Notes under the pieces: model-generated | What the model was told of the DNA's origin: nothing | Seen by the model: only the letters and a program-made list of their open reading frames with translations | The model's database searches: none | Shown here: in pieces, positions 168 through 25,640 of the stretch | Layout of the letters: each line of letters opens with the position of its first letter | Numbering within the stretch: position 1 is the stretch's first letter | Origin: Methanoculleus taiwanensis | GTDB lineage: Archaea; Halobacteriota; Methanomicrobia; Methanomicrobiales; Methanoculleaceae | DNA: 64,000 nt | Reading direction: 5' to 3' | Assembly (NCBI RefSeq): GCF_004102725.1 | Contig: NZ_LHQS01000002.1 | Location: 549,984 to 613,983, forward strand | Position numbers and translations under genes: made by a program

Positions 168-216
168 AGGCTGTTTGCTCCTGCCTGTCGAGTCCCGGGA
201 TGACAGACAATCATAA

Positions 217-237
217 AATATTACCTCAAGTAATATT
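217..237. promoter_or_regulatory. Perfect 8-bp inverted repeat in a divergent promoter
   Basis: The two arms AATATTAC (217-224) and GTAATATT (230-237) are exact inverted copies around CTCAA. The site lies between the divergent genes starting at 167 (minus) and 284 (plus) in an AT-rich island within G+C-rich DNA. The AT-rich arms overlap plausible TATA boxes for both directions (about 25-50 nt before each start). A dimeric repressor bound here could shut both genes together. No regulator gene for it is visible in the window. Confidence 0.55.
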
Positions 238-283
238 AATCTGCCTTGACTCCCTATACTCTCTCCAATGGAGGAATGCGACA

Positions 284-532: not shown

Positions 533-547
533 ACGCCGATACTCCGC

Positions 548-964: not shown

Positions 965-1215
965 GCTGCTTCGTCAAGTGCTTTCGCTTCGCGGTGCCAC
1001 TTCAGGCACACCCATGCTGCTACAATGAACTGAACCCCGACGAACGCGGGAACGGCATAGACCATTCCATAAAATACCGGTGTCAGCACGGGGATCAGGG
1101 AGGGGTACTCCACTGCTATAGCATAAACACCATGCGCCCCGAAGAAACTCGTGAAGGCGACGACCGCCGGCCAGAAGTTCCGTATGTGGACGATTTCCTG
1201 AAGAGTTAATTCCAT
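961..1215 (-). CDS. Small membrane protein, two predicted transmembrane helices
   Basis: 84 residues starting MELTLQEIVHIRNFWPAVV; a longer frame exists upstream but is less protein-like, so the ATG at 1213-1215 is chosen. Hydrophobic stretches at about 14-34 and 43-70 suggest two membrane passes. It is the first gene of a two-gene unit with the anchored protein at 548-964. Family not recognised; the pair may be part of a viral or plasmid surface function. Confidence 0.65.
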   Translation of the reverse strand: MELTLQEIVHIRNFWPAVVAFTSFFGAHGVYAIAVEYPSLIPVLTPVFYGMVYAVPAFVGVQFIVAAWVCLKWHREAKALDEAA

Positions 1216-1369
1216 GCTCCCGAGCCTCGTTTTCAATTTTGAGGCGCTGGCATTTAACCCTGCCCCTGTACGCCCTCCCAAAACCGCTCCATTTCCGGTG
1301 CTGGTTACCGCCTGTGAGTCTCTCCGATTGATCACACGGAGGCTCAGCGCGGCGGGCTCCTCTCATCGT

Positions 1370-1405
1370 TCACTTTCACTGAGCGCGGGGCTCCCTCCTA
1401 AATAG
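1370..1405 (+). promoter_or_regulatory. cdc6 promoter: 17-bp operator or ORB-like element followed by TATA box
   Basis: The element TCACTTTCACTGAGCGC (1370-1386) stands 11 nt before a TATA-like CTAAATAG (1398-1405). The TATA box is about 25 nt from the cdc6 ATG at 1427, so the transcript is probably leaderless. The same element with one mismatch stands before the promoter of the replication operon (18963-18979, minus strand). Its dyad followed by a G-run resembles archaeal origin recognition boxes, which Orc1/Cdc6 proteins bind next to their own genes. Whether it is an origin, an autorepressor site or both cannot be told from sequence. Confidence 0.55.
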
Positions 1406-1426
1406 GGACGGCCCCACGATCCTTGT

Positions 1427-2554: not shown

Positions 2555-2566
2555 AACCTGCCTCTC

Positions 2567-5380: not shown

Positions 5381-7059
5381 TCTGATTTATACCCCTGAAT
5401 CATGTATCCGAATTTCTCAAGGATGAGCTTCTCTCTCTCCTCGATAAATTTCTCATAATTGTCAAGTTTCCAGAGTTCGGGTTTCCTCGGGATCAGGTGC
5501 ATGTCAAGGTAGGCATCATCCTTGTCAGCAAACCATTCGTTCGGAGGTATGTCCCGTTTTCCCGAAAATCCGTTCTCATCCGCGGTGAGGAGCATGAGAT
5601 TGGCAAGCTGGTCGCGATCTTCCTGGTAATATCTGAGAAGATTCCGTTTCCCGTTTTCCGGATTGACTTTCTTTACTGTTCTGAGGAGAGACTGCGGGAA
5701 GATATGATCAACCTGGGGGAGGTTGTCCTCATACGCTGGCGTGTAGTTGAAATGCCTATACCAGAGGTTGAAGATGAGGTGGATATTTTTTGATCCGTAG
5801 TACTGCCCGAAAATGGTGTTCTCCGTCAGTTCCAGGCTGCGTCCGTCTTCGCGGATGATGCCGAAGATCTCATTCACATCAAACTCTCCAGTGGAGCTGA
5901 TAGCCTTCGCACAACGGTCGATTAGATTGTCGGGCGTTCCGCTAAACGCTCCGCTGAGGAGTGTCCGGAGGAGGTATTCGTCGAGGTTCCGTACCGTACC
6001 CCATTTTTCGGGGAAGTGGTAGCGGAAGTATATGAGGGGGATGAGGACGAGATAAGACGGCATTGCCTTGTCCGTCCGTATGAAGGTCTTGCCGTAGAGG
6101 TAATCCCTCACGTCGCGGATGGCTGAAGAGATGCCCTCCCATTTGTCAATGAGTTCCTGCCTGGTACCTTCATCACGGAACTTTTTGACTTCGTATGATG
6201 CCCCTTTGTTGAGGAGTGTCAGGCAGGTTTTCAGGACAAAGTCACGGGTAAAGTCATAGCCGACGCGGTTGAGATCGTCGAGCAGTTCTTCCATCTGCTC
6301 ATCCGCAGCCTCCCACGATGATGTCAGGAGAGAGAAGAGCAGATCGGATTTGCCGAGGCGTGTTCCTCCCGAGTTGGCGCGGATGAAGATCTCGACGACA
6401 TCATCTTCCCTGTAGGCGTCCGCGTTATCAACGCTATCGAGCTCCTGGTAGACCACCAGTTCTTCGTTGATGAACTGTTTTGCGATGCGGGCCACATTGT
6501 CTTCGATGCGCTCCTCTTCTGCTTCGGTCAGATCTCGCCCGGCATTTTTGATAGTTGATTTGGCGATCCTGCTTGAGAGTTCATTGCTGAAGACCAGATC
6601 CTTGAATTTGATCCAGGGGAATACAGCCTTTTCGGCATCTAAAAACTGGAATTTATAGCGGATGTCCTCCGGTGCAACGAGATCGCCACTGAGTACATCA
6701 AAATACATCTCACGCTTCTCATAGCTTCCCCGGAGACCGATGAAGAGGCTTTGCAGTCTCTGCTGGCCGTCGAGGACGAGAAGTTTGGTTTTGTCATCTT
6801 CGGGAACGTAAAAGTCGGTGAGACGGAGGGTGCTTCTGTAGTTGTCGATGAATTTCCGGCGGCGGATGCGGGACTTGGTGCGCCATACGAGGAGGGTGCT
6901 GATAGGGTACTCCCGCATGATGGAGTCGAAGAGGCGCTCTATCTGGTCTTCTCTCCAGACGAACGGCCGCTGAATGTTCGGCAGCCAGAAGCCTCCGTCT
7001 CTCTCCTCATTATTGAGGTAACTGACCATCTTTCGGATGGTCTCTTTTTGGTTTTTCAT
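5377..7059 (-). CDS. DUF262-DUF1524 fused nuclease (GmrSD-like)
   Basis: 560 residues. The N-terminal DUF262 (ParB/Srx-like) domain shows IQRPFVW (29-35) and the diagnostic DGQQR (97-101), an NTP-binding motif shared with DndB-like and GmrS proteins. The C-terminus carries a DUF1524 HNH-type nuclease with VDHIFPQS (His452 region) and a downstream Asn in QLANLML (about 484). GmrSD type IV enzymes use these two parts to cut modified DNA. Here the protein lies between a DNA methylase and an ATPase, spaced 6 bp from the methylase and overlapping the ATPase start by 4 bases. It may be the operon's effector nuclease, aimed either at unmodified DNA or at phage-modified DNA. Confidence 0.87.
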
Positions 7060-7065
7060 ACGTCA

Positions 7066-9960
7066 TCAGCCCCCGTAGGAGGAAAGTGTCTTTTGCGGTG
7101 TTTTCTCGATCACGACGGCCGTCTGTGCCTCGACGGCTCCCCATGAGGCGATCAGTTCGTTGTACGGGCGGGCGTCTTCGGCCCAGCCTTTCCGCTCGCA
7201 GAGGGTGTAGAGCCGGTACGCGAGCTGCCGGATCGCCGATGCCCGGCCGGGCATGCGGGCGAGGAGGGCGGCTGCCTCGGGTTCCCCGCCGCCGCACTGG
7301 TGGACGCGGATTAGGTGGTGGAGCGCCTCCCAAACCGGTGTCCGGCTGTCGGTCTCCGGCGACCAGTCTTTCGGGTACGCCGACCACTTCATGAGCCGCA
7401 CCTTTCCAGCGCCGGCCTCGACGACGCCTGCCTCCCGAACGCCGTCGACGGTGGTGCCCCGGGCGCGGGCGAGGACATCGGCTTCGCCGAACTTCCCCTC
7501 TTTCCAGCCGTTCTCCTCGAACCAGCCGAGACAGAAGCGGGTGTCAGCGTCGAGGTCGCCGCTATCGTCCGAGAAGTAGGTATCCAGTTCGCGGTTGATG
7601 AGCACGAGGGCGTCGTGCACCGGCATCCGGGAGCCGTCCGCCTCAAGGACAGCGGAGTACTGTGAGAAGACTCCCATCCCCGGGCCTATCGCCGCCTGTG
7701 CAAGATCGACGGGGGCGATCGAGGAGGCGGTCATCTCGTCGAGTGCCTCGGGGAGTGCCCGCTTTAGCTCGCGGAGGAACTCTTTGCGAGAGACGGCAGG
7801 AGTGTCGGGGTCGCGCCTGCGGCAGACGAGGACGACCGAGGAGGCAAGGGCATTAGTATCCATACCTACAGGTCTATTACCTAACTCAGTACGCATTGGC
7901 CATGTACCAGTGACGGCGAATCCCGCCTTTATTACTGCTTCAAGGAAAGATTCCCAGCCATTGGAGGCAGTATCACCCCCCTTCGTTTCCGACTGTTTGA
8001 AAGCATAGTAGATTGTCACCGGGAAAGCGGGGTGTGCTTGCTCGGCAAGACGGCGCATCGCTTCAGTCATCCCTTGCATGAAGAATAATTCGGCCTTCTC
8101 CTTTGAGCCGTGGCGATAGGGTGTCGCCACCAGTTCTTCGGCCTTTGGGACAGCCATCGTGGCAAAGAGCGAGGGGAGGACCGGTTTTAAAGAGTGGCGA
8201 AGCCAGACATAGAAGAAGTCGGAAAGGTCTGAGTAGCCGATGTTGTCGTAGTAGGGAGGATCGGTTGAGACGACATTGTTTTTGGATATTATTTGATTCG
8301 AGGCATCAGATTGAAGGCAAAAACCATGATCATTGCAAGGGAGGCGATCGATCACCTTTGACAATGTGTTTAAGCTGACGCCATAATCTCCTGCAGCATT
8401 AGCAAATATGTTTGGCTCAGCAAAATCCCAAACCATGGGAATAGCTTGTCGACCAAAAAGGTTCCGGACTTGAGTTTTTGACACTTCCCACCGGCAAAGA
8501 GCATTACAGATATCGCTGAGACGGCTCAATCCCAATCCAAGATACACCGCCACCGCATCCGCATACGCCGCCGCCCCGTCGCCGCCAGCCTCCAGCCTCC
8601 GGTCGTCGTCAGGCATGCCGGCGGCGAGGGCGTCGTTATGCACCCACTCCCGAGCCTCGCTCACAAGGTCGGAGATGGTAGTGAGGGCGACGAGCTGGCG
8701 GGGAGTGAAATAGTCTCCGAAGGTGTGGAAGCCGTAACGTCGCCCCTGTGCATTGCTTGCGAATGTCCCTCTGCATGGTGTCTCTGGTTTCCATGATGTT
8801 ACTGCTGATACGGCGACTTTCTCCATATCAGCGAAGGGAGAGAGACAGACTCGACCTCTTCTCCCTTCTGCGACGATAGCTATCAACCGGGCTCCCATTC
8901 TCCCAGCATTTGCTTCATCGTCGATGTAGGAATAACTCATTGGGGTATTAGACAAGAGACATCTAAAGCTTCCTCTGGATAATTTAGTCCCTGTTTTAAC
9001 CTGATCGGGATTTTTTGGCCTTCCCACCTTTACAGAAAACCGATAGGTGTTTCCTTCAATTACTGGCTCAATATAGACTTCCTTCCCTTGTTTGGTTGAT
9101 AGCCAGAATGTTGAGACGAGCGGCACCTCAATATCTCGATATGCTGGGTTTGGGCTTCGTACCGTCCTTGCCCAGAGCCAGGCGATCACCGTCAACTCCT
9201 CGCCGACATACTCCTTCAGATCTGGTCGCTCCTCTGCCATCTCCGCTGTTATCCGGACCTCCGGGTAGAGGTGGCCGATCCGTTTCTCGGCCTCGTCGCG
9301 CATCCACTGGCCGTAATACCGGACATCCTCGGCGAGCCCAGCAGCACCCTTCCACTCGGTACCGACCCGCTTCTGCTTTCGGCTCTCCGGGTTCACCGGT
9401 GGCCGTCCGGCAAACTTCGGCGGGATCTCGATCATCGCTTTGTTGATCAGCACCGCCACCGGATTCAGGTCGGATGCCCAGGCCTCAAGGCCGAGCCGCT
9501 GCGCCTCGAGGGGAATCGCCCCGCCGCCAGTGAACGGGTCATGAAACGCGGGCAACTTGTCGGGGTTGAAGAGTTCCTTCGCCTGCGGATGGTTTCTGTT
9601 CAGGGTGCAGGTTTCCCGCCAGCTCTTCAGGATCTCCGCCCTCGCCTCTGCAAGCACCGCCTCGTTCGTGGTGTTCTCCCAGAGGACGAGCTTCTTCATG
9701 ATCTCGAAGAGGCGCTTCCTCTCAGCTTCGGCCTTTTCCTTATTCACACCCCGGCCAAGCTCCCGCTCATAGCCGGGATCGTTGACGAGCTGTGCAAACA
9801 GCACCGCACGGGCGGCTGCCAGTGGTCGCCGTGCCCACCAGAGATGGAGAGTAGAGGGGTGACCGTGGCGGATTGACTTCTCCCGCACCGAGGCGACATT
9901 AATCTCGTCCAGTGGCAGCGCGACCTCAATCAGTTTCTTCGGTATTTTGACAGTATCCAT
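7066..9960 (-). CDS. DUF1156 (COG1743) adenine-specific DNA methylase
   Basis: 964 residues. The N-terminus matches the DUF1156 signature ([33 protein letters not shown]). AdoMet-binding motif I is DPFTGGG (141-147) and catalytic motif IV is DPPY (567-570, followed by [18 protein letters not shown]), typical of N6-adenine methylases. DUF1156 also occurs in PglXI of BREX type 3. The long insert between the two motifs (about 170-560) is expected to hold target recognition. Base composition within the gene is strongly mosaic: 37% G+C at 8281-8340 against 73% at 8581-8640 (counted). It is second in the operon, 13 bp after the helicase. Expected role: self-marking, or activation of the defence complex. 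Confidence 0.9.
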
Positions 9961-9973
9961 AGCAGTCCCTGCA

Positions 9974-13489
<3,516 letters not shown>

Positions 13490-14008
13490 GGGCTGATACG
13501 TCTCCGTTCTGCGATCTTCTGCACATCCAATAGGGAGAGGGGCGGAAACATCGCCCATTTCCGGTGAATGGTAAATTATGGACGTTCACTATCCGTCTGC
13601 AGGGCGGATCTCTGTCTCCTGAAGTTCCCTTTGTTTGCGGGACAGGATTATCGTTTCGGTTTCTTCAGAGCCCTGAGAATCTAAATGGTATCTATTCCAG
13701 TGATCAATATGGAGAATGGAGAGAACAGGCGAGCGTTACCCATCTTTCCTACAGTAGAGCACATTTTTTACGGGTGTTTAGGAGAGATGTACCCGCAATT
13801 ATCAGAATTAGTATTCCTTGCCCGCTCGGCATCTTCACTAGAATGGATGGTAATCTCAACGCCACCCATCCTTCAATGACCGATTACCCAAAGTCCCTTA
13901 AATGCCCGGAATAAAGCCATTAACCAATTCAATAATCTCCAAATATAATCTCAGCCACAATTGCCAAGTAAAAGAAATTATAACCGATGTCAACCAACCA
14001 AATTGAGA
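13490..14008. other. Intergenic, about 520 bp, no supportable gene
   Basis: This stretch separates the leftward defence operon from the rightward NERD gene and must hold both promoters. It becomes progressively AT-richer to the right. A plus-strand frame at 13564-13914 and short minus-strand frames around 13780-13884 exist, but none has convincing codon use or a recognisable domain, and the minus-strand one is interrupted by stops, so a decayed gene is possible. Nothing else is seen. Confidence 0.6.
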
Positions 14009-14893
14009 ATGGCACGTTTATATCGAAGTAATAGAGATTTTCTCAATAAAAAAATTGAATCCGAAAAGCAACAGCGAATCGAAGAAAACAAGCTGATTCA
14101 AAAAGAATATGATGATAGGGTAAAAGCTGCTGGTATCAAGCAAGTAGAGAATTTAAGGGCAAAACAGGATAATATTGCACTACATTGCGTAGCTTCGTTT
14201 ATTGCCATACTTTTCTTGCAAGCCGTCACAATTCCGATTGTGAGTCATTTTGGAAGTATAATACTCGTTCTTTATATCTGTATTTTAATACTGTCAGTTT
14301 TCGGTCTTAAAACGCCTGAAATTGAAGTTGAACCTCCGAAGTTCAAAGAAGGTAGCTCTGCAGCGGAGAAAGGTAAAGAGGGCGAAGAAACAGTTTTAGA
14401 ATACTTATCGCGGTTACCCGAGGAGTATATAGTTATCGATGATATTGTAATTGAAAAATATCAGGGGAATATTGACCATGTAGTTATAGGTCCGACTGGC
14501 ATTTTTGTCATAGAGACTAAAAACTGGTCATATCGAAAGATTCGGCAAAGATCTGGCGTATGGTATAGCGTAAATAACCATGTGGAAAATAAAATTCCAT
14601 ATAAAACAGACCCAGTAACACAAGTTCTTGGAAACGCCATCCGACTACGTGAGGAACTACAACGAAAACTATCGACTGCTGAATGGATAGAGGCAATCGT
14701 CGTCTTTACAAACCCGCTTATGGAATTCCAAACGTCGCAGTCACGTAATGTCAGTATTCTAAAACCATATGAGTTAAACGAAGAAATCTTACGGAACAAA
14801 AAAACAGTTGGTCAAGAGACTATTCAGAAAGTATCAGAATATCTTATTAAGAATTACACCAGTGAGACAACTCACGAATTTACAATGACATAA
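14009..14893 (+). CDS. NERD-domain nuclease-related membrane protein
   Basis: 294 residues from the ATG at 14009 (MARLYRSNRDFLNKK). A charged N-terminal helix is followed by two membrane segments (about 59-78 and 82-100) and a cytosolic NERD domain: GKEGEETVLEYLS (122-134), NIDHVVIGPTG (154-164) and FVIETKN (166-172), giving the D...ExK nuclease-like triad D156, E169 and K171. NERD domains are distant relatives of restriction and Holliday-junction nucleases and occur on plasmids and in defence islands. Coding G+C is very low (19 of 60 bases at 14401-14460), unlike the about 60% operon beside it, which points to a separate and recent transfer. Function inferred: accessory DNA-processing or defence nuclease at the membrane. 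Confidence 0.85.
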   Translation: MARLYRSNRDFLNKKIESEKQQRIEENKLIQKEYDDRVKAAGIKQVENLRAKQDNIALHCVASFIAILFLQAVTIPIVSHFGSIILVLYICILILSVFGLKTPEIEVEPPKFKEGSSAAEKGKEGEETVLEYLSRLPEEYIVIDDIVIEKYQGNIDHVVIGPTGIFVIETKNWSYRKIRQRSGVWYSVNNHVENKIPYKTDPVTQVLGNAIRLREELQRKLSTAEWIEAIVVFTNPLMEFQTSQSRNVSILKPYELNEEILRNKKTVGQETIQKVSEYLIKNYTSETTHEFTMT

Positions 14894-14936
14894 ACAAACC
14901 GCTTAAAAGTATCGAAACTCTATCCATACCCAATGC

Positions 14937-15215
14937 TCACCCGAGATCGGGGGCGGATGAGTTTTGTCTCATATCCTCCCTTCTTTTCCGTCGTGTGCTC
15001 ACAAATCCCGATGTTGCCGCTAACCAGTAAAACCCGAAGAGGCTCATCGTATACACGTTTCCCTGAAGCGATGCGTACACTATCCACAGCAGATTTCCTA
15101 CAATCCAACATCCGAATCCCGCTGCTCGGGTACCTGACGACTTCCCCGTCACCAGCACCGCCCCGGCCATCCCGAGCACTACCGCCGGTCCCTGCAGGGG
15201 ATCGACGGAGATCAC
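14937..15215 (-). CDS. Small membrane protein coupled to the primase-helicase gene
   Basis: 92 residues with a GTG start at 15213-15215, chosen because it overlaps the TGA of the upstream primase gene as GTGA, the same coupling used at the start of the primase itself. Three hydrophobic stretches (about 12-24, 30-50 and 52-72, including WIVGNLLWIVYASLQ) predict a small integral membrane protein with a basic tail (STRRKRRED). The repeated glycine-rich segments recall small transporter-like families, but I do not recognise the family. It is the last gene of the element's replication operon. Confidence 0.6.
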   Translation of the reverse strand: MISVDPLQGPAVVLGMAGAVLVTGKSSGTRAAGFGCWIVGNLLWIVYASLQGNVYTMSLFGFYWLAATSGFVSTRRKRREDMRQNSSAPDLG

Positions 15216-18103
15216 CGCACCCCCTCCCTCGCGTTCCCCTCCCGCACGAGCCGTGCGTAACACCCCTGGCAGATACTTGCCCGTGCCTCGCGTGAGTGGT
15301 AGGCCGCCCTCCCCGTATCGCAGATTGTGCACCGCCCGAGGTCAACGGACACCCGCTTGAACGTCCGGTGGTCGAGCAGCCCGGGCAGCGGCCGGACGCC
15401 GGTTGCAACAGGGTTGTACATAGGGTTGCAAAGGGGGTTGCAAACATGGTTGCAAACATTTTCGGTCTGCAAACTCTTCGTTACGCCGGGCGTTACAGCA
15501 TTTCCTGATGAATTGCCATTTTCGATATTTTCGTTTGCAACCATTCCGGAAACACACGGTTCGCTCCGATCGGGCACGCGATCAGGCTGCTCTTCCGGTG
15601 GAGTCAGACAGGGTGAACTGTGTGATCCGGAAATTGTTGCAAACGACCCTGGATCGCCGCGATCAATTTCTTTTGAAACACCTCGATTTCCAGAATTATC
15701 GCCAGACTGCCCTGAACCCTCACCCTCGATCTCTTTGCAACCACTATTGCAACCCCCTTTGCAACCCTGTTTGCAACCGGTGTTACAACTCCCGTCCGGA
15801 GGCGGCGGGGAGTCCCCCTCCCCGGGGTCCGCATCCTCATCCTCCAGCCAGACCGCGAGCTGCGCCGCCCACTCCCGGTAGCACTCGAGGTCGAACTGGA
15901 AGTGGAGCTCGTGCCGGCGGACAGTCGTCCCGGTGCTCTCGTCGATCACCGTCGCATCCACCACCCCGAGCGCCGGACACTTCTCGAGGAGGCCGCAGTA
16001 GACCGTGCCCTTCGCGGTATAGCCCTGCAGGATCCGCCGGACTTGGTGGTACGACAGTCCGGTCACCTGCTGCAGCATCCGGACGGTGAACGTCTCCCAG
16101 CCCATCCGGGCGATCGTCTGGAGCGCCGCCGCTTCGTTCCGGGTCATCTTCGAGTCCTGCCCGCCGCCCTCCCGGTTGATCGCGCCGTAGAGCCGGGCAG
16201 CCGCGTCGAAGTCCTGCCGAGTCGCCTCGATCTGGAGGACGACACCGATCTCCTTTGGGGAACGCTGCAGAAACCGGAGCGCCGCGTGGCACTTGATCAG
16301 GTCGAAGAGCATCGCGGGATTGCGGCGGTTCGCCGGGTTCGAGAACTGGATCTGCCGGGCGAAGGGGATCCGAACAAAGATCCGGTGCTGCTTCACGATC
16401 GACCAGAGCGCCCGGGCAACGAGCACATCCGGATCGGTTGTGTCGGTCGGCTCGCCCGCCTCGGATCGCTTGAGGTGCTCGAGCACCGCTCGGTCTTGCT
16501 CGGCCGAGTCGTCGATCCAGACCGTCAGCATCCGGTTCATCACCTGATCGTCGCCCGGGTTCTCGACCTTCGCGAGCCACCAGACGCACCGCTCGGGGAT
16601 GCTGCAAACCCGGAGCTGCCGGTCGGCCGTGACCGTGCGGTGCTCGATCGGCTCGTGGAAAGACGACGTGGCCGACTTCAAAACCTCCTGCAGATCGTCC
16701 GAGAGCGTGGTGTCGTCGAAGAGGATCACCGTCCCGGGCCGGAGGTCGTCGTGGTAGTAGAGCGCTTTGTTCGAGACGGTGCCGGTCATCTTGTAGGCGT
16801 CCGGGATGAGGTTGAGCATCGTCGAGCAGGCGTGGCTCTTCCCCTTGCCGGAGTTGCCCGAGATCGCGACGTGCAGGCCTTTCGTGTTCGCCACCGACTG
16901 CGAGGCGACCGACATCGCCAGGCACTCCGCCACGATCCGGTCGCCGACGTGGCTCTTGTTGAAGGTCGCGAGCAGGAATGCGAGCGGGTCGCCGCTCTTC
17001 AGGATGGCGAGCGCCTTCTCCCGGTGCTCGTCCTGCTGCGGTGCCGGTTTTGGAGAGGGTGCGGGAGTCTCCTCCTGCTCCTTCTTCTCCTGCTTCTGCA
17101 CCCGCTTCTCCCTCGGCCGGCAGCGGTCGCGGAGCTCCGGCCACCGCTGCTGCCCGCCGCCGCAGCTCTGGTGGTGGCAGCCGGCGAAGATCGCGCCGCT
17201 CGGGAATTGGATGGCAAACGCGCCGTCCCTGTGGGCGGAGGAGAACGGGCAGTCCTCGAGGGTGTAGAGGGTGCCGCCCTGGTAGGGCCGCGTCGACCGG
17301 ACGGCGATCTTGTGGTCGAGGAGCCAGGCCGCAAGGTCGATCGCGGCACCGGTGCCGTTCGCCCGCTTCGGTGCCGGCTCTTCTTTGGGGAGCAGCCCGG
17401 CGAGGTGCGTGAGCCTCTCCACCGGAACCACAGCAATCTCGTCGGGAACCGCGAGCAACTTCGCCCTTCGGTGCGGCCGCTCCGCCGTGTTGTCGCCCTT
17501 CCGCGAGACGGTGCCGTAGAGCTTCCAGATCCGGGCGGCGTTGTGATTCGCGGTATCGACGGTGACCTGTTCGTTTGAGAAGAGGGCGTCAAGGGTCGCG
17601 AGGCAGCCCTTCACGAGCCCGGTCGCTGCGTCGTCGTTCCCAAGGTCGACCCGGTAGAGGAGGTGGGCGCCGTTGCCGGAGTCGGCCGCAACCGGCGCCG
17701 GGAAGCCCTGCTCGCTGAGCCAGGCGGCGATCTTCTCGGCGGTGGCGAGCGCGAGGTCGTGCTCCTCGTCGGTCGATGACACTCCGCTCGGCCGCACCGG
17801 GTCGATATCGACCGGCAGCCAGCGGCGCCGGAGGATGTCGGCGTCGGCGGTCGTCGCGTCCTTCTTGGAAAGCCGCAGCTTGATCCGGTTCGCCCGCCGG
17901 GAGAGGAGCGCCGGGTTGACGGGGTTGAGGGTGACGTAGATCCCGCCGACCGTCGGATCGGCGTCGAGCACTTCCACCCGTGCGGCAAGCTCGGTGCGGT
18001 CGTCGAAGTAGCCGGAGTGAACGGCGTTCTCGGCGAGCGCCCGCACCTCCACGACACCCTCCGGAGCAATGACCTGCACGGCCTCAAGAATACCGTCGCT
18101 CAC
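15212..18103 (-). CDS. Primase-polymerase/helicase replication protein with C-terminal Cys-Asn repeats
   Basis: 963 residues, GTG start at 18103 overlapping the upstream TGA. The N-terminus has the archaeo-eukaryotic primase pattern: VDIDP with D99 and D101, SGNGAHLLY (142-150) with the motif II His, and RIWKLYGTVSRKGD (191-204). A Cys/His segment (C285 to C314, with FAGCHHQSCGGG) may bind zinc. An ATPase follows, with Walker A GNSGKGKSH (415-423) and VILFDDTTL as Walker B, as in DUF3987-like helicases, then a winged helix. The last about 190 residues contain two arrays of four-residue repeats (SCNTGCKQGCKGGCNSGCKE and VCNHVCNPLCNPMYN) and end in a CxxC-type zinc ribbon (CTICDTGR, ICQGCYARL). 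Expected to prime and unwind the element's DNA. Confidence 0.85.
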   Translation of the reverse strand: MSDGILEAVQVIAPEGVVEVRALAENAVHSGYFDDRTELAARVEVLDADPTVGGIYVTLNPVNPALLSRRANRIKLRLSKKDATTADADILRRRWLPVDIDPVRPSGVSSTDEEHDLALATAEKIAAWLSEQGFPAPVAADSGNGAHLLYRVDLGNDDAATGLVKGCLATLDALFSNEQVTVDTANHNAARIWKLYGTVSRKGDNTAERPHRRAKLLAVPDEIAVVPVERLTHLAGLLPKEEPAPKRANGTGAAIDLAAWLLDHKIAVRSTRPYQGGTLYTLEDCPFSSAHRDGAFAIQFPSGAIFAGCHHQSCGGGQQRWPELRDRCRPREKRVQKQEKKEQEETPAPSPKPAPQQDEHREKALAILKSGDPLAFLLATFNKSHVGDRIVAECLAMSVASQSVANTKGLHVAISGNSGKGKSHACSTMLNLIPDAYKMTGTVSNKALYYHDDLRPGTVILFDDTTLSDDLQEVLKSATSSFHEPIEHRTVTADRQLRVCSIPERCVWWLAKVENPGDDQVMNRMLTVWIDDSAEQDRAVLEHLKRSEAGEPTDTTDPDVLVARALWSIVKQHRIFVRIPFARQIQFSNPANRRNPAMLFDLIKCHAALRFLQRSPKEIGVVLQIEATRQDFDAAARLYGAINREGGGQDSKMTRNEAAALQTIARMGWETFTVRMLQQVTGLSYHQVRRILQGYTAKGTVYCGLLEKCPALGVVDATVIDESTGTTVRRHELHFQFDLECYREWAAQLAVWLEDEDADPGEGDSPPPPDGSCNTGCKQGCKGGCNSGCKEIEGEGSGQSGDNSGNRGVSKEIDRGDPGSFATISGSHSSPCLTPPEEQPDRVPDRSEPCVSGMVANENIENGNSSGNAVTPGVTKSLQTENVCNHVCNPLCNPMYNPVATGVRPLPGLLDHRTFKRVSVDLGRCTICDTGRAAYHSREARASICQGCYARLVREGNAREGVR
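15403..15788. repeat. Twelve-bp-periodic TTGCAA palindrome arrays inside the primase gene
   Basis: Ten copies of the self-complementary hexamer TTGCAA start at 15403, 15426, 15438, 15450, 15535, 15637, 15735, 15747, 15759 and 15771. Two groups are spaced exactly 12 bp (15426-15450 and 15735-15771), and a degenerate TTACAA at 15783 extends the second group. Each copy encodes Cys-Asn or Cys-Lys on the minus strand. The spacing, close to one helical turn, is what iterons show; equally, the array may exist only because the protein has a repeated peptide. Confidence 0.75.
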
Positions 18104-18441
18104 CCCGTCACCCCCTGGATGAGGGGGAAGAGCGGGGCGCTGACCGCTTCGCCGCGGGCGACCCGCTGGAAGCTGACGAGCGGGATGATGAACGACCCGA
18201 CGCGGGTGTGGAGCATCACGGCCTTGCCGGTACCGTTGACCGTCGCGTGGCCTTCGATGGCGACCTCGCTGATCAGGTAGTTGCCGCCCCGGGTCTTCGT
18301 GCAGTCCTGGGTGATCGGCACCACCCGGCTGTAGAAGAGCAGATTCTTCACGTCCTCCTGCTCGATCCGGTAGCGTTCGGCCTCCACATGAATGTGGAGC
18401 ACGCCGCCGGCACCCTGGGAGAGCGTCCCCGGCTCATTCAT
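18100..18441 (-). CDS. Hypothetical protein of replication operon
   Basis: 113 residues starting MNEPGTLSQGAGGVLHIHVE. Predicted mostly beta with a central YRIEQEDVKNLLFYSRVVPI segment; no signal or membrane helix and no recognised motif. Its TGA overlaps the GTG start of the primase-helicase (GTGA), and its start overlaps the end of the next upstream gene by 8 bp, so it is made as part of the replication operon. A single-strand-binding or regulatory role for the primase is possible but not shown by the sequence. Confidence 0.72.
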   Translation of the reverse strand: MNEPGTLSQGAGGVLHIHVEAERYRIEQEDVKNLLFYSRVVPITQDCTKTRGGNYLISEVAIEGHATVNGTGKAVMLHTRVGSFIIPLVSFQRVARGEAVSAPLFPLIQGVTG

Positions 18442-18709
18442 TGCAGTCCACCTCCTGGAGGGTGATCGTGATCACGAAGAAATTGTGACCGTTCAGCTTC
18501 GCCCGGATTTCGAGGATCGATCTTCCATGGCGGCGGACCGCCGCCGAGATCGTCTGCGGGATCAGGTAGAGCGGCACCGGGTCGAGGGTGCGGATCGCCG
18601 TCGATCTTATCCCCTCCGATGCCGAAGAGTTCCTGGCAGTCCCGCATGAGTCGATGTTGTCGCACGCTTCATTCCGTGGGCTGCCGTCTATCCTGTCTGT
18701 GCTTTGCAT
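18434..18709 (-). CDS. Hypothetical small protein of replication operon
   Basis: 91 residues from the ATG at 18709 (MQSTDRIDGSPRNEACDN), with GAGGG about 8 nt before it. The second half (PQTISAAVRRHGRSILEIRA, then KLNGHNFFVITITL) looks like a compact beta-rich domain and resembles small proteins that pair with the 113-residue neighbour; no family is recognised. The longer frame reaching 19264 is not credible because it runs back through the promoter. It overlaps the genes on both sides. Confidence 0.68.
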   Translation of the reverse strand: MQSTDRIDGSPRNEACDNIDSCGTARNSSASEGIRSTAIRTLDPVPLYLIPQTISAAVRRHGRSILEIRAKLNGHNFFVITITLQEVDCNE

Positions 18710-18831
18710 TTCGTTCCCTCGCTGTGGGGTGTTATCAGTCTGGCTTTGCCGTCGGCGATCCACTTCTCCCAGACGAGTTTTGCTATCGGGTCCGGGATGT
18801 GGTCGAGCACTTCCTGGGAAATCTCTCTCAT
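18688..18831 (-). CDS. 47-residue protein, first gene of replication operon
   Basis: A short frame MREISQEVLDHIPDPIAKLV ends at TAG 18688-18690 inside the start of the next gene. GGAG lies about 8 nt before the ATG. The helical, charged sequence with DPIAKLVWEKWIADGKARL has normal codon use. Overlap with the downstream ribosome binding site suggests translational coupling. It could be a small DNA-binding or regulatory peptide; nothing in the sequence proves it. Confidence 0.55.
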   Translation of the reverse strand: MREISQEVLDHIPDPIAKLVWEKWIADGKARLITPHSEGTKCKAQTG

Positions 18832-18945
18832 GGTCTGCTCCTGTGCGGCGGATCACGATGATCGGTGCTGAAGAGGACGGGGATGTCGGGTTTTGGTCTT
18901 TAGGCCTCGAACAGATTCCCGCACACAAAAAAGGTGGACGAGAGG

Positions 18946-18979
18946 GGTTATAAGCGGGAACTGCGTTCAGTGAAAGTGA
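18946..18979 (-). promoter_or_regulatory. Replication-operon promoter with copy 2 of the 17-bp element
   Basis: Read on the minus strand, TCACTTTCACTGAACGC (18979-18963) is followed after 7 nt by the TATA box GCTTATAACC (18955-18946). The element differs by one base from the copy before cdc6 and has the same orientation relative to its TATA box. Expected transcription start is near 18922, leaving about 90 nt of leader before the 47-residue gene. The shared site implies common control, possibly by the element's own Cdc6. Confidence 0.6.
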
Positions 18980-19152
18980 GGTACATTTTATGCTAATGGT
19001 ATGCGATGCTTGAGGCCAAACAATTGGTAGGTCCCTCCCGCATCTCAATGTTATGATGGATGTTTCTGGATTTGCACATTCAGGCAGCCAGCATTTCCCC
19101 CATGTATTTCCGTGGCCAATTTTCTGTAGAAGAACAGCTCGAATCAAGAAAG

Positions 19153-19161
19153 GTATATATA
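19153..19161 (+). promoter_or_regulatory. TATA box of the TPR gene
   Basis: GTATATATA lies about 40 nt before the ATG at 19200, which places transcription start near 19180-19185. A G-rich ribosome binding site (GGGGGGAG, 19189-19196) stands directly before the start codon. Confidence 0.6.
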
Positions 19162-19199
19162 GAGGCTCACCTATCCCCCGCCCACTCTGGGGGGAGTTT

Positions 19200-22100
19200 A
19201 TGTCAGCTTTGGATCTCGCCTCGAATAAAAGGGGGGTAAGGGACACTATCCGGAGAAAACTCACCGATGCTCTTGCTCTTCTTTCTCATCCCCAATTTGC
19301 ACGATACTGGATCAGCCACGCTTTCTGGTACATAAATTTCCAGATAAGTAGACGCATAGGACAGATCGGGTCGCGCCTCTGGCAAGGGCTTAACAAGCCC
19401 ATTACGTGGTTGTTAGCAATTACGGTGCTTGTTGTTCTTGCTGAATTTGTATACTGTTCCCTGGATCCGGGTAGTCCAATACGGATTACGGTGAACGCTA
19501 CAACACTGAAAACAAGCCTGGATAGCATATTCTCCCTAAACGAGCTTGGGAAAATTATCCTGGTTTACTTTATCCTTGGGATACTTGTTGGGTTCACGCG
19601 TCTGTTATCTAAAAACAGAATTTACGTGAGAAATTTTGTCGATCATACTGAAACCGCTCCAATGAACGGATATCTCAACAATCTGCTCCTTGCGGAGTTT
19701 GATCGTATCGAAAGCCTTTATCAAAATATCACCGAACGGCAAACCGTTATTTCTGGGAGAAGGCGACCTGTTAGTTCATTTGATGTCTTCTCACGTTCTG
19801 CTGGTAGCGGGTTGACCCCTCCACAAATAAGATCGGAAGATTTTGTCGATGCCTTGAAAGAACCCCTGAGTGAAAGTTCAACGGTTAAATTAGGCCTGCT
19901 GGAAATCCCGCTAAATCTGCTCTTGCGCATGTTTAGTCAACTGATCTTCAGGAATTTCATCACGGGAACTCTTGATATGGATGGAGAAAAACTCCTCCTT
20001 GTTGTACAGCTGAGTGAACGTGGACGCACATGGATAATAAAAGTAGAGGAACCGGATACGCTAGATGAATCCGATGAAGACAATACTTCCCAGCGCAATC
20101 GGATGATCAAAGAACTGGCGTGCAGAATTTTTACGATCCTGACGCCTTCCGGATCGCTAAAATGGGAGGCAACAGAGGCATTCAATGCGGGACTTGAGGA
20201 ATATCAAAGAGCAGTACAATCGCCGACGGAGTATATGATCCGACTCAAAAAAGCCGAACATGCGTTCCTCAAGGCAACCGCTGAAGATCCTGAGTTTGCC
20301 TTGGCCCACTATAACTTAGGTACTATATATACTCAAGAAGGGAAGGTTGACGCGGCAGAGATCGCATTTGGCTGGGCACTCCACCACAATCCGCGCCTCG
20401 CCGGTGCCTGTTACGCTATGGCTTACAACCATTTTAAGAGAGCAAAATTAAATCACAGTGTGAAGGAAGAGGATGGCGAAAAAAAGCAAAATCCAGATGC
20501 GCTGCTTGAGTCAGCTGTCCGGTACTGTCAGCAAGCAATTTTCCTTCAGCGCTGTTACCCTGAAGTTTACGATCTCATGGGATTTGCCAAGCGCCTTCTT
20601 GGAGAACATGAAGAGGCGATAAGAAACAGGGAGATTGCCGTTAAGCAATCGTGGAATAAATTATGCGAAAAGGAACGTAAGGGGCATGACACATCGGAAA
20701 AGGGACCTGACCTTTACAGACATTCTCGAACAAATGCCTGTCACTGTATGAGAAATCTTGCAGCGACGTACTTATATGCGATGTTATATGCGATGGATCA
20801 GCTCGATGTTGGTGCGAAGCACCGGCATTATGCGGCCTTCCTGTTGGCAGATCAGCTCTTTCATCAAGTGATTGCTCTGGATAGATATGACTCTAGCCCC
20901 CTATTGCAGCGGGGACTGATCTACTATCGGCGAGGAGAAGAACGAGAACTTCTCAACATTGAACTAGCGCGACTGCATGAAGAGATCCAGAAGGTGGGAA
21001 AAAGTTTGGAAATTCCAAACAGCCCATACAAAAATGAATGGGCGGATTATGAAAAGAGGAGGGTAGACTATGAGGAAAAGCGCAAGAAACTACATGAGAT
21101 TGAGGCAGGGGTTAAACGAAAGCTAGTCAAAATGGAGGAGAAAAAGAATGAGCAGAACCACTTGTCTGAAGAAGTCTATGCGCAGAGAAGAGGATTCGAT
21201 ACTGTCAAAGCGGTTCTCGGGAATAAAAAGGAAAATTACTTTAGTTCCAGAAGTAAACTCGGCGAAATACGCCAAGAATGTAAAACATGCGCAGATAGTT
21301 ACAAAGATGCAAAAAACGAATTGCCTGCCGTGCATCGCGATCTAGATGGAATTAATGAGAGATATTGTTCTTCATACTCCAGCTTGCTCCCTATTTTCCA
21401 CCAAGAGTTGGCTCCTACTCCCACTTGGGAACACCTTGCGGAGAGTAGTCTGCAATATCATGAAGTCTGGCAACGTTACGAAAGATTGAGGCGCCATTCT
21501 GATAGTGAAATGTGGTATGGGCTCGCCTGTCAATCGTTTGAGGCAGCACTGCAGATGGAACAGGAAAACCAGGGATACTGGGCAAGTCTTGCAGCAGTTA
21601 GAGCATCGTTGAAACAGAATGACGCGGCGAACGCCGCCTGTGAAAAAGCGACAAGCTGCATTTCTAGTGCATCGAACACTTGTATCGAGGTGGTATTAAG
21701 GGCTTATGAGATGGTGGAAAACAAACAAATGCGTGATCGGCTGAAAGATAGGCGAGAATGGCTCCAGTATTTACCTGAAAGGTTGAAGGAGATCTGCCCT
21801 GCTCTCGACCGGCGTGAGATTGTGGTACTAGGATCTAAGATGCCTAAAGATTGGTGGAAAATAGAATTTAGGATGCCTAAAGATGAGTGGGAACGGGGTA
21901 TGGCCTTTAAAAAATGCGCAGAACGGTGCATGAATGAGGGGAAACACGCGAGTGCAGCACGTTTATTTAGCAGAGCAATAGGCGCATTTGAAAAGAATTA
22001 CCCCGGAGAAATACGAGAACTGAAACTTCATGCAAGCCATGCCCAGGCCCTTATCGCCATGAACAAACATAGGGATGCCCACGAAACTCTGAGAAAAGCG

Positions 22101-23099
22101 TTTGATCTCGACCGGACCTGTCCGTGCGCCTGCCAGACCCTTGGTGATCTGCATTTCTCGATGAGCGACCTCGATGGTGCCATACGCGAGTGGAACAAAG
22201 CGGCGTACTGCGACCCGTCCGATCCCGATACTCCAAAGAGAATGGGTATTGCATACTTGAGAATGGTAGAGCAATCTCCGAAATGTGATCGGGAGGCACT
22301 GCTTCGTAAAGCAGAAGTGGCTTTCAGTCAGTCTATTGCTCTCTCCGAGGGGAGACTCGATTCCGAAGAGAAAAATCTTAATGCCGAAGATAACCTTGGC
22401 AAAAAAGCACGTGCAGCATACTGGTTGGGAAGAACCAAACTACTGTTGAACGATCCTCCGAATGCTATTGTCCATCTGAATGTTGCGAGGAGTCTAAATT
22501 ACTCTCCTTCGCTTATCTCTTACTACCTCGGAAAGGCATACCTGATGCAGAATGATTGCATAATGGCTCACACCTGTTTTGACCAGGTGATCTGGGATCT
22601 GGAATCAAATGGCAAGGGCGATGTACCCTTACAAATGCAGTATGATGACAGGCTCTTCGAAACAATCTCTGGCTATGAGCTGTTGATCAACACCTATCTG
22701 CAGAAGGCAGGTGCATCTCTCGATCACTACATTTGTCAGGATGAAGCGCTCGGCCTCATTAACAAGGGGATGAAGTGCATCAACAAGATTGACGACGATG
22801 TTAAGAAATTACAGTTGAATGCCGCTCTGCTCAATCACAAAGGTCGAATTTACGTCCGACAAGGAGAAATCTATGATGGCGTAAAGGATCTTGAAGATGC
22901 CGTTTCGCTATATCCCAATGCCAATTTTTTCATCCACCTTGCCCAAGCATATGAAAAACAGCGAGAAGGAACAACGTCTCTGGCAAGAAGACGACAAATC
23001 GCTGAAGGTATCAGAACCTGCTGTAATCACGCAAAAGCACTTGATCCTGACAATGAGCATGAAAAGGAGATCGAAGACTTTCTCCGACGATCTACATAG
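19200..23099 (+). CDS. Giant membrane-anchored TPR-repeat protein (element cargo)
   Basis: 1299 residues from the ATG at 19200, chosen over a longer frame because of the TATA box and ribosome binding site just upstream. Two membrane segments (67-86 PITWLLAITVLVVLAEFVYC and 118-136) are followed by a soluble domain with DGEKLLLVVQL (about 262-272), then TPR helices (for example FALAHYNLGTIYTQEGKVDAA near 365 and QTLGDLHFSMSDLDGAIREW near 980), split by a long charged coiled coil (about 600-710). More TPRs fill the C-terminus. No nucleotide-binding or nuclease motif is seen. G+C is clearly lower than in the host genes. It lies between the replication operon and the integrase, a usual site for cargo. 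Role unknown; a sensor or scaffold in defence is one possibility. Confidence 0.82.
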   Translation: MSALDLASNKRGVRDTIRRKLTDALALLSHPQFARYWISHAFWYINFQISRRIGQIGSRLWQGLNKPITWLLAITVLVVLAEFVYCSLDPGSPIRITVNATTLKTSLDSIFSLNELGKIILVYFILGILVGFTRLLSKNRIYVRNFVDHTETAPMNGYLNNLLLAEFDRIESLYQNITERQTVISGRRRPVSSFDVFSRSAGSGLTPPQIRSEDFVDALKEPLSESSTVKLGLLEIPLNLLLRMFSQLIFRNFITGTLDMDGEKLLLVVQLSERGRTWIIKVEEPDTLDESDEDNTSQRNRMIKELACRIFTILTPSGSLKWEATEAFNAGLEEYQRAVQSPTEYMIRLKKAEHAFLKATAEDPEFALAHYNLGTIYTQEGKVDAAEIAFGWALHHNPRLAGACYAMAYNHFKRAKLNHSVKEEDGEKKQNPDALLESAVRYCQQAIFLQRCYPEVYDLMGFAKRLLGEHEEAIRNREIAVKQSWNKLCEKERKGHDTSEKGPDLYRHSRTNACHCMRNLAATYLYAMLYAMDQLDVGAKHRHYAAFLLADQLFHQVIALDRYDSSPLLQRGLIYYRRGEERELLNIELARLHEEIQKVGKSLEIPNSPYKNEWADYEKRRVDYEEKRKKLHEIEAGVKRKLVKMEEKKNEQNHLSEEVYAQRRGFDTVKAVLGNKKENYFSSRSKLGEIRQECKTCADSYKDAKNELPAVHRDLDGINERYCSSYSSLLPIFHQELAPTPTWEHLAESSLQYHEVWQRYERLRRHSDSEMWYGLACQSFEAALQMEQENQGYWASLAAVRASLKQNDAANAACEKATSCISSASNTCIEVVLRAYEMVENKQMRDRLKDRREWLQYLPERLKEICPALDRREIVVLGSKMPKDWWKIEFRMPKDEWERGMAFKKCAERCMNEGKHASAARLFSRAIGAFEKNYPGEIRELKLHASHAQALIAMNKHRDAHETLRKAFDLDRTCPCACQTLGDLHFSMSDLDGAIREWNKAAYCDPSDPDTPKRMGIAYLRMVEQSPKCDREALLRKAEVAFSQSIALSEGRLDSEEKNLNAEDNLGKKARAAYWLGRTKLLLNDPPNAIVHLNVARSLNYSPSLISYYLGKAYLMQNDCIMAHTCFDQVIWDLESNGKGDVPLQMQYDDRLFETISGYELLINTYLQKAGASLDHYICQDEALGLINKGMKCINKIDDDVKKLQLNAALLNHKGRIYVRQGEIYDGVKDLEDAVSLYPNANFFIHLAQAYEKQREGTTSLARRRQIAEGIRTCCNHAKALDPDNEHEKEIEDFLRRST

Positions 23100-23271
23100 C
23101 GTAGTAATGATATCACATTGTATATAGCGGCGTGAATTGCCGGCCGATTCAGATGCCCTATCCAATGCTTATCGAGATCGTCGCGCCCTCTAAACGAAAA
23201 TACCACACGAGAGAGATCGCGAAATTATCGAGATTGAGACCTTCAAAATTAATTGGATTGGATAATTGGAG

Positions 23272-24411
23272 TCACCGTGCTAACCCCAAATCCTTCCGAA
23301 TCTGCAGGAGCATCTGCAGATACTCCTCACTCTTTTTCGCCTCCTCCGTCGACTCATCAACCTTCCTCGCCGCCTCCTCGACGAGTGCCATTGAGCACGC
23401 CGCACAGTAGAGGGCGTCGTGGGCGTTCAGGTGCTTGCACCGCGGGCACTGCCGAGGCTCGAGAGCAGTATCCGCAGGGTCCGGGGTGTCGTCGATGAAC
23501 CCGGCGTTCTCCAGCAGCTTCCGCTCGACGTCTGCACCCGAGAGGTGGACGTAGACCTCCGGCATCGCGCTGTTCCTCTCCCATCCGGCCACGAGCCGGA
23601 GCTCCATCTCCGAGAGTCCCCGCTTCTTGCCGTTGCTCTTTGTCAGGTCGGTGAGCCGGGCGTGCCGGATCGCGTGTGGATGGATCGGTTTTGTCATGCC
23701 GAGTTTATGGGCGATGTACTTGAGTTTGTTCCCCACGGTCTGGGCACTCAGCCGCCGCTGCTCAGGTCCGTAGCGCCGGGTGGTTACGAAGAGCGGAGCG
23801 TTCTTGTCCGTGCGGAGCGGGTGGGTGTTGATCCAGGTTTGTATGTCCGGGACTGAGCTGATCAGCCGGAGCCGCCGCATCCCGGTCTTGCCGGTCACGA
23901 TCACGACGGCACCGTAGCGATCGAATTGGACGTGACCAATGTTCAGGCTGAGAAGTTCGCCTATCCGGGCGCCGGAATCCCACATGAGCATAATCAGCGC
24001 CCGATCGCGAGGCCTGTCGCAGACATCGACAAGCCGGTTGATATCGTCGCGGGTGATCAGCTGATCTACCGGAAGGTGTCGCCGCGGCTTTTTGATCTTA
24101 ATGTTCTGGAAGAGCCCGATCTCTTTCTCCGGCACGAGCCAGCGGAAGAAGAGTTTCAGTTCGAGAATGTCACCCTGGACGGTGAAGGGGCTGCATTCGT
24201 TTCGTCGCGTAATGATGTAGTCTTCCAGCTGCTCTTGGGCGACATCCTTCGCATCACTGAAGTTGGTGTACTGGAGGAATGGATAGATGCGCCAGAGCTT
24301 TGTTCTGATGGTTTTCTCTCTAAGCTGCTTGAGGCGGAGCCATCGAATGTAGCCCTCAAGGTGCCTGCGGTTGACGGGGTCGAGCAATTTCATCTTGTCG
24401 AGATCATCCAT
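23272..24411 (-). CDS. int: Tyrosine recombinase (integrase) with zinc ribbon
   Basis: 379 residues from the ATG at 24411; a longer frame would start inside the tRNA fragment. An N-terminal SAM-like core-binding domain (about 12-100) is followed by the catalytic domain with R149 (GARIGELL), K175 (GKTGM), H246-x-x-R249 (HAIRH), W277 (GW) and nucleophile Y287 (VYVHLS). A zinc ribbon (CPRCKHLNAHDALYCAAC, about 318-335) and a short coiled coil end the protein, as in many archaeal element integrases. It would catalyse site-specific insertion and excision at the tRNA-Leu gene whose 3' part lies 60 bp from its start. Full motif set, so probably active. Confidence 0.93.
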   Translation of the reverse strand: MDDLDKMKLLDPVNRRHLEGYIRWLRLKQLREKTIRTKLWRIYPFLQYTNFSDAKDVAQEQLEDYIITRRNECSPFTVQGDILELKLFFRWLVPEKEIGLFQNIKIKKPRRHLPVDQLITRDDINRLVDVCDRPRDRALIMLMWDSGARIGELLSLNIGHVQFDRYGAVVIVTGKTGMRRLRLISSVPDIQTWINTHPLRTDKNAPLFVTTRRYGPEQRRLSAQTVGNKLKYIAHKLGMTKPIHPHAIRHARLTDLTKSNGKKRGLSEMELRLVAGWERNSAMPEVYVHLSGADVERKLLENAGFIDDTPDPADTALEPRQCPRCKHLNAHDALYCAACSMALVEEAARKVDESTEEAKKSEEYLQMLLQIRKDLGLAR

Positions 24412-24470
24412 TGTTCTATCACTCCCCTGACGCTGGCATAAGGGTATACAGCGCCAAGTGAATGTGATAG

Positions 24471-24522
24471 ACTTAAGATCCATTCCCGCAGGGGTCCGAG
24501 GGTTCGAATCCCTCCCCTCGCA
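24471..24522 (+). other. Attachment site (attR): 3' half of tRNA-Leu(TAA)
   Basis: The sequence fits a class II leucine tRNA from the anticodon loop onward: loop CTTAAGA (anticodon TAA), 3' anticodon stem TCCAT, variable arm CCC-GCA-GGG, T arm GAGGG-TTCGAAT-CCCTC (24498-24514), 3' acceptor strand CCCTCGC and discriminator A (24522). The 5' side does not pair: the bases before the loop are GATAGA instead of ATGGA. So this is not a full tRNA gene but the duplicated 3' end left by integration, the right end of the element. The complete tRNA should lie at the other end, left of this window. Confidence 0.9.
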
Positions 24523-24617
24523 TATTTGGGTTATAGCTAGCTAAAATATTTGACACTCTGCAATTCTGCTATTTCTGTCTTGTAACCTTGCGGCGCGCTT
24601 CAACAAAGAAGAACCGA

Positions 24618-25640
24618 ATATCTGCTGTTAATGTTGCGAGATATCTGCACTGTAGAAAACCTCCACGATGAGAAATTGTAAGAATCTGTGGAGGTTACAG
24701 ACAATCATTTTTCCGGCGATTTCTTTTGTCTGGATGAGAAATTTTCTTGCTCTGAGATCCCCGGAGAATTTTCTTTTCAAGACAGAGAATTTGTTTTCAA
24801 CGAGTTGTCGTCGAGGGTAGATGATGTCATTGAACCGAGTGGCCATTTCCTGTCGGTACGTCCCACCAACGAAGTCAGCATTCCAGGATCGGAGAGGGAT
24901 AACCGAATTGGCATGAAGGATTTCCCGGATCAGCCGGTGAATGGCTTCAGAGTCGTATCCCCGATCCATGACATAACAATCGGATTTCCGGAGATTGTGG
25001 CATTGCCTGAGTAGTTTCTCTGCATGCCGGGTATCATGAACCCGGCTTTTCGAGGCAACGAATCCGGTAATAACCTGTTGTTCGGTATCAACCGAGATTG
25101 ACGTTTTGAGGAAATGTTTTCGGATTTTACCGGTTCGCTCAGAAAAATAATGACTGCAGTATCCGCTGGTAAACCCGGATGAGTCGATTGCGGTTATGGG
25201 AAGTGTATCGTCAGTGGAGTAGAACAGGTTCACGGTTTTCTTGAATGTCAGCCGAAGGTACAGAGATTTTATCCGGCAGAGGAATTTCTGGAGTGTGGTG
25301 AAATGCGGTACGATTGAGTGGTTCAGGATATCCCGAACTTGTTCCATGTCACCAACATCTTCAATAAACTCCCGGTAGTGCTGGTTCCTGAAGTCTTTGA
25401 AAAGAACGAGGACAAGAAGCTGATACTGGGTGTAAGTCTTCTTCGAATACTTGCAGGAATAGGGCTTGAGGTGAGTCGACTTTATGACCTACATTGCGGC
25501 TTGGATAAACCTGATATTCCGGCTCGCCGATCTTTTAATTGTCTCCTTTCTATTTGACCACACATCAAATGAAGGAGACACTGTACCTTAGATCTTTCGG
25601 TCGTCGGTCTACCCCTTTTAGTTTCGGATTTCAACAGAGC
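24618..25640 (-). mobile_element. IS5-like insertion sequence (transposase interrupted)
   Basis: About 1.02 kb. The right end, read inward, is GCTCTGTTGAAATCCG (25640-25625), a terminal repeat type common in IS5-family elements. The left end is less certain: CTGCTGTTAATG near 24621 is only partly similar, and no target duplication is evident. The element lies directly outside the tRNA attachment site, so it is chromosomal rather than part of the integrated element. Confidence 0.6.
24628..25563 (-). pseudogene. IS5-family DDE transposase, in-frame amber stop near N-terminus
   Basis: The intact part from ATG 25347 gives 239 residues with DDE landmarks (AIDSSGFTS, VMDRGYDSE, and R...K/E region VENKFSVLKRKF). 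Homology-like sequence continues upstream without a start codon: SCKYSKKTYTQYQLLVLVLF and before it FIQAAM, but a TAG at 25489-25491 sits between them where related transposases have Arg or Lys. Reading on to a possible GTG at 25561-25563 would give the full protein. So the gene is broken by one nonsense codon; the shorter ATG product lacks about 50 N-terminal residues and is probably inactive. Confidence 0.75.

Follow-up and report, generated by a model that had tools for sequence, protein, structure and literature searches.

This locus raises the question of what became of a transfer RNA (tRNA) gene of which one half lies beside an integrase gene in the 64-kb stretch of Methanoculleus taiwanensis DNA analysed here (the window, G000:C2:549984-613983, where G000 is the 2.75-Mb archaeal genome that holds it). 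The gene in question is tRNA-Leu(TAA), and the answer that we consider very probable is that a 44.8-kb element broke this host gene by integration and carries a complete replacement copy of it, a case of tRNA-dependent integration. At window positions 24470..24522 on the plus strand (C2:574453-574505 in contig coordinates), the sequence reads GACTTAAGATCC...CCCTCGCA, from the anticodon loop through the discriminator A, and the DNA on its 5' side (GTGATA...) shows no resemblance to a tRNA. No complete tRNA was detected in the window with ARAGORN, by which all tRNAs were called. A 101-bp query spanning the 3' half matched the intact tRNA-Leu(TAA) gene of G000 with an expect value (E) of 5e-19, and over 20 other loci with a related integrase also show a tRNA 3' half in the equivalent place. 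For these two reasons, a chance origin of the half is excluded. Its sequence, ARAGORN and the partner 5' half described below identify it as the right junction (attR), confirming the original prediction that a tRNA-Leu(TAA) half, running from the anticodon loop to the discriminator base with unrelated DNA on its 5' side, marks the right end of an integrated element.

The original prediction had proposed a search for a complete tRNA-Leu(TAA) to the left, implying the usual model, whereby a complete gene is rebuilt at the end opposite the displaced 3' half. Such a gene was found at C2:529738-529822, on the same strand as the 3' half and 44.6 kb to its left, and it is the sole intact tRNA-Leu(TAA) gene in G000, which holds exactly two TAA-type 3' halves, one in this internal copy and one displaced. 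An ordinary tRNA-targeted island, whose attachment site (attP) brings a 3' half that restores the tRNA on the left while the native 3' half ends up on the right, would account for this much: the element has an intact tRNA-Leu(TAA) at one end and, at the other, a displaced 3' half with the integrase beside it. What it leaves unexplained is an extra 5' half, GCGAGGGTAGCCAAGCCCGGCCAAAGGCGGTGGACTTAAGA, which occupies C2:529595-529635, 102 bp upstream of the complete gene, outside the window and 44.8 kb left of the 3' half. The two halves have in common only a 9-bp core, GACTTAAGA (24470..24478, plus strand), consisting of the anticodon loop CTTAAGA and two further bases; its presence at both junctions supports the predicted cross-over inside the anticodon loop. 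Joined at this core, the halves fit base for base into a normal tRNA, an 85-nt gene called as tRNA-Leu(TAA) with every stem paired, while no tRNA is called in either half alone or at either junction. With the intact tRNA-Leu(TAA) of G001, a genome of the same genus, the joined gene shares 95% identity, and the four differences between them form, by inspection, two compensatory pairs. Between the complete copy in G000 and the joined host gene, 12% of positions differ.

Two types of tRNA-Leu(TAA) occur among the relatives, one with the D-stem GGT/ACC and the variable arm CTC/GAG and the other with GCC/GGC and CCC/GGG. In G000, G020 and G025, the intact genes are wholly of the first type, whereas the displaced halves are of the second. 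The 5' half is likewise a sequence of the second type that stops in the anticodon loop and is followed by a conserved arm, ATTAATACTAAAAAAGGTTACT, and then by the complete gene; when upstream DNA was aligned, a second tRNA start upstream of the intact gene was also observed in G017, G020, G025 and G033. Since complete gene and displaced half differ in type in the three genomes, the usual rebuilding model fails, and the possibility that rebuilding in the ordinary way, with a 178-bp direct repeat, had produced the intact gene at C2:529738 was rejected on this ground. In addition, the anticodon, D-stem and variable stem of the intact gene are coherent with one another and distinct from both halves, and no attP tRNA fragment that rebuilds the target gene, as in Islander-type elements, was found. 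Together, the 5' half and the match of the two halves to each other already refute the ordinary-island model, to which we give hardly any credence. The complete tRNA-Leu(TAA) is evidently a separate, element-borne gene, and the host gene remains broken in two. The gene sought to the left thus exists, but as a second gene, distinct from the broken one and carried within the element, and the true partner of the 3' half is the 5' half at C2:529595-529635; because the complete tRNA is element-borne, the proposed search alone would have falsely confirmed the ordinary model.

The element spans C2:529627 to 574452. Window positions 1..24469, to which no strand applies, are all element, as predicted, and represent its right 24.5 kb; the left 20.3 kb lies outside the window and includes the left arm and the complete tRNA-Leu(TAA). 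In G001, which lacks this element, the left flank (DUF2070, aminotransferase) is followed by an intact tRNA-Leu(TAA) and then by the genes of window 26.9-42.7 kb. As these flanks and the intact tRNA are contiguous and collinear, G001 presents the empty site. A second comparison comes from G020: joining its halves gives a sequence 100% identical to the intact G011 gene, its internal copy reaches only 85%, and its right flank continues that of G011. Across host families, internal TAA copies are near-identical (G000 versus G102, 99%; versus G118, 96%), while the 5' halves native to the hosts of such copies diverge by 8-12%, which indicates that the copy travels with the element. The internal copy of G000 also resembles the host locus in a promoter region of about 50 bp (93%) and in 120 bp of 3' flank (92%), which suggests that the element acquired an entire tRNA locus from an organism closely related to the host. 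The corresponding host flank, the native right-hand side of the 3' half, occupies 24523..24642 (plus strand) and matches the 3' flank of the internal copy at about 90% of positions. That these 120 bp might be the end of an insertion sequence was rejected, because the similarity is present at only these two places in the genome. A DDE_Tnp_1 transposase gene lies in the host flank just right of the junction (24628-25347), and no second copy of it was found in the G000 genome.

The layout, running from 5' half and short arm through a complete tRNA with matching anticodon and the cargo to an opposite-strand integrase and the 3' half, recurs in 16 elements of two methanogen classes that have both ends on one contig, the criterion for our two-ended set; further loci preserve the left end only. 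Thirteen of the 16 are from Methanomicrobiales, with anticodon TAA in G000, G020, G025, G119 and G118, TAG in G011, CAG in G044, G104, G161, G001 and G169, and CAA in G042 and G138. The three from Methanosarcinia, all TAG loci, belong to Methanolobus vulcani B1d, Methanolobus bombayensis and Methanococcoides alaskense. The core measures 9 bp in G000 and 9-15 bp in the other two-ended elements. Joined halves fold as a tRNA-Leu with the anticodon of the internal copy in 15 of the 16, and the anticodon stem pairs 5/5 for an element's own halves in 15/16, compared to 14% for halves taken from different elements. The exception in folding is G025, whose 3' half has lost one base, as would be expected if the broken host gene is no longer needed.

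The locus G159:C1:1319828-1333657 (L174, L175) is composite, with the left end of a Leu(CAG) element and the right end of a Leu(GAG) element, and was excluded from the two-ended counts because its ends carry different anticodons. The existence of composite loci of this kind, together with the fact that the site is a hot spot in the family, speaks for nested or tandem insertions, whereby an older element would have rebuilt the tRNA, a second one would have inserted beside it, and the 5' half would stem from a chance rearrangement. Against this stands the repetition of the same order and short spacing in all 16 two-ended elements, over four anticodons, and in circular virus genomes as well, and we regard nested insertion as very unlikely. 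It could also be argued that the halves form a split tRNA gene, transcribed apart and trans-spliced as in Nanoarchaeum, since both G000 halves are intact and fully complementary, and it has been proposed that mobile elements can split archaeal tRNA genes (PMC3293823). But there is already a complete tRNA with this anticodon, recombinase arms found throughout the family border the halves, and the G025 half is short of one base, so that trans-splicing appears extremely improbable. On the element side of the 3' half, the arm occupies 24412..24469 (plus strand), with CAGCGCCAAGTGAATGTGATA adjoining the core, and is kept in G020, G025, G011, G036 and G097.

Circular genomes of related viruses contain the arrangement in its free form. 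The record vir524 (BK063669.1), a circular tailed virus with a Methanomicrobiales host, encodes terminase, head proteins and a related integrase (46%), and its order is integrase, core AGGTTCAGGGCC between inverted GCCATG...CATGGC arms, and complete tRNA-Leu(CAG). While a single-protein scan of viral contigs gave no match, an alignment-based search of them returned three close relatives. The IMG/VR contig L242 is the same virus as vir524 (99.97%), and L241 is a second virus of this type. In both vir524 and L241, the core AGGTTCAGGGCC and a complete tRNA-Leu(CAG) lie between integrase and cargo, and there is no displaced half. A circular form without a 3' half is a further point against an ordinary island.

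The sequences themselves show the layout, a short core within the anticodon loop, the disruption of the host gene and the presence of a carried copy. In the mechanism that we propose, tyrosine recombination across the 9-bp core placed the element in the anticodon loop of the host tRNA-Leu(TAA), splitting this gene into two dead halves separated by 44.8 kb. No matching 3' half for rebuilding is carried by the element; its own copy, with the same anticodon and its own promoter region just inside the left end, would take over the reading of UUA codons. This internal copy is presumably transcribed, essential after integration and able to decode UUA, and excision would be expected to restore the host gene. 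Some observations weigh against this explanation. UUA codons are used but rare (16 of 10150 codons sampled from long open reading frames (ORFs)), which touches on the need for the tRNA, and the G000 assembly consists of 12 contigs, with the element's two ends on the same one. Furthermore, the family is not uniform: in the viral contig L240, the core is accompanied by a plain tRNA-Leu(CAG) 3' half, that is, an ordinary attP. This core lies about 60 bp from the integrase start, and the 3' half runs into the same neighbouring virus gene as in the relatives; the L240 attP could be derived from the L241/L242 form by one deletion, from the core to the anticodon loop of the complete tRNA.

Integration with a replacement copy might also become permanent. 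In G017 (99% complete; locus L107) and G045 (one contig, 98%; locus L165), the 5' half and the element copy are present, whereas a TAA-type 3' half and a closely related integrase are both absent from the two genomes, and the foreign element tRNA appears to be their sole tRNA-Leu(UAA). Its retention in these two genomes and the lack of a further intact TAA gene in G000 give indirect support to a need for the element tRNA after integration. Because of these two loci, and thus reasoning from two genomes, we think it somewhat probable that in methanogens the capture of essential tRNA-Leu genes by mobile elements is recurrent and permanent, and that the host keeps the foreign tRNA as its sole copy once the rest of the element has decayed. 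Apparent TAA halves in G017 and G022 turned out to be complete tRNA-Leu(CAA) genes and were discarded. As a separate observation, the internal tRNA-Leu copy of G108 (L162:10082-10199) has an insertion of about 33 nt in its anticodon loop, possibly an archaeal tRNA intron, which would also abolish the integrase target.

The integrase gene itself (23272..24411, minus strand) encodes a tyrosine recombinase of 379 amino acids (Pfam Phage_integrase, E 1e-18). A complete recombinase gene about 60 bp away on the element side had been predicted, and its ATG is indeed located 58 bp from the 3' half; the longer mechanical ORF reaching 24483 is not a likely start. In an alignment of 12 members, R149, K175, H246, R249, W277 and Y287 are invariant, as is a four-cysteine tail (CPRC..CxxC), which in the window protein is a zinc-ribbon-like C-terminal CPRC..CAAC, and the enzyme is probably active. 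As tyrosine recombinase chemistry implies, strand exchange would take place within the 7-bp loop. The gene is uninterrupted beside the junction and is not split on integration in the manner of SSV-type (suicidal) elements. Members of the family adjoin 3' halves of all five tRNA-Leu anticodons: TAA, TAG, CAA, CAG and GAG. Two contigs with this archaeal integrase, L195 and L233, are filed in Oscillospiraceae and Atribacteria bins and are probably misbinned.

The cargo had been predicted to comprise replication and defence genes, and this was borne out for defence and for a large replication-type protein, with the primase reading coming from motifs only. The defence genes (2567..13558, minus strand; PADLOC) are HmaC, GmrSD-like (HEC-05), HmaB and HmaA. 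The Hma system is complete, with the HmaA helicase, HmaB methylase and HmaC ATPase scoring 2049, 1605 and 1458 bits in PADLOC, and the GmrSD-like gene sits between HmaB and HmaC. A core protein of 963 amino acids (15212..18103, minus strand) with a Walker A motif, GNSGKGKS, and primase-like motifs is 56-74% identical to its counterparts in the elements of G020, G024, G025 and G119. No relative was found in Pfam, NCBIfam or PDB sequences, its single weak match being one uncharacterised PHROG (E 7e-6), and its predicted structure is poor (predicted local distance difference test score, pLDDT, 37); its motifs suggest a primase/helicase. Elements that share this protein also keep one of 113 amino acids (18100..18441, minus strand), and a third core protein (18434..18850, minus strand) has a conserved part of about 137 amino acids, the upstream part of its mechanical ORF not being conserved. 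Recurring in related elements, the three likely form a replication module. The window part of the element further contains a TPR-repeat protein of 1348 amino acids (19053-23099) with a lower G+C content of 46%, and the left part encodes ArdC-like antirestriction, NERD-helicase, HNH, GIY-YIG and HEAT-repeat proteins. No structural virus genes were detected among the G000 element proteins scanned, a scan which covered part of the ORFs, and the element may be a virus remnant, a plasmid or a satellite.

It has been reported that actinobacteriophages such as Fionnbharth and Gaia use tRNA-dependent lysogeny (Guerrero-Bustamante and Hatfull 2024, PMC10865867); the same paper adds the prophage Lj965 of Lactobacillus to the candidates and makes no mention of archaea. 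The methanogen elements resemble these phages in that a tyrosine-family integrase acts, here by sequence evidence, at a host site (attB) inside a tRNA gene, in that no functional tRNA is rebuilt at the left (attL) or right junction, and in having sister elements with an ordinary rebuilding attP. They differ in their archaeal hosts, in a single integrase family that covers all five tRNA-Leu anticodons, in the G000 element's defence cargo and replication-like protein without structural virus genes among those scanned, and in eroded loci where the element tRNA would be the host's only copy. The type II integrases of pNOB8 and pT26-2 (Badel et al. 2019, 2021; PMC6972569, PMC8371274) share with the present family an intact integrase beside the attachment site, a tRNA gene as target, a cross-over in the anticodon loop and the switching of tRNA targets, but according to those papers the tRNA gene is there always rebuilt or undisrupted, whereas here it is disrupted and replaced. 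A disrupted tRNA-Thr of Caldiarchaeum (Sugahara et al. 2012, PMC3293823) is similar in that a 5' fragment precedes a complete tRNA with the same anticodon and a recombinase gene separates the two; it was explained by an intron-bearing attP and rearrangement, and neither the pairing of a 3' half nor a carried replacement gene was proposed. In the open-licence literature, no description of tRNA-dependent integration in archaea was found.

According to an archaeal review, integration is always followed by restoration of an intact tRNA gene, a rule on which island-finding software relies. The integrase family described here, present in Methanomicrobiales and Methanosarcinia, breaks this rule, and software that matches a tRNA fragment to whichever intact gene is closest would misplace the left end by about 100-150 bp and overlook the mechanism. 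tRNA-dependent integration would then be present in both prokaryotic domains, and it offers a reason for the tRNA genes found on archaeal viruses and elements. An element that brings its own tRNA would be freed from requiring a long match to the host tRNA, and a route would be open for the horizontal replacement of essential tRNA genes. The occurrence of viruses with a complete tRNA (vir524, L241) and with a plain 3' half (L240) makes the origin of the two modes testable. If the takeover of tRNA-Leu genes is true, it would mean tRNA gene replacement with an addiction-like effect across two archaeal classes.
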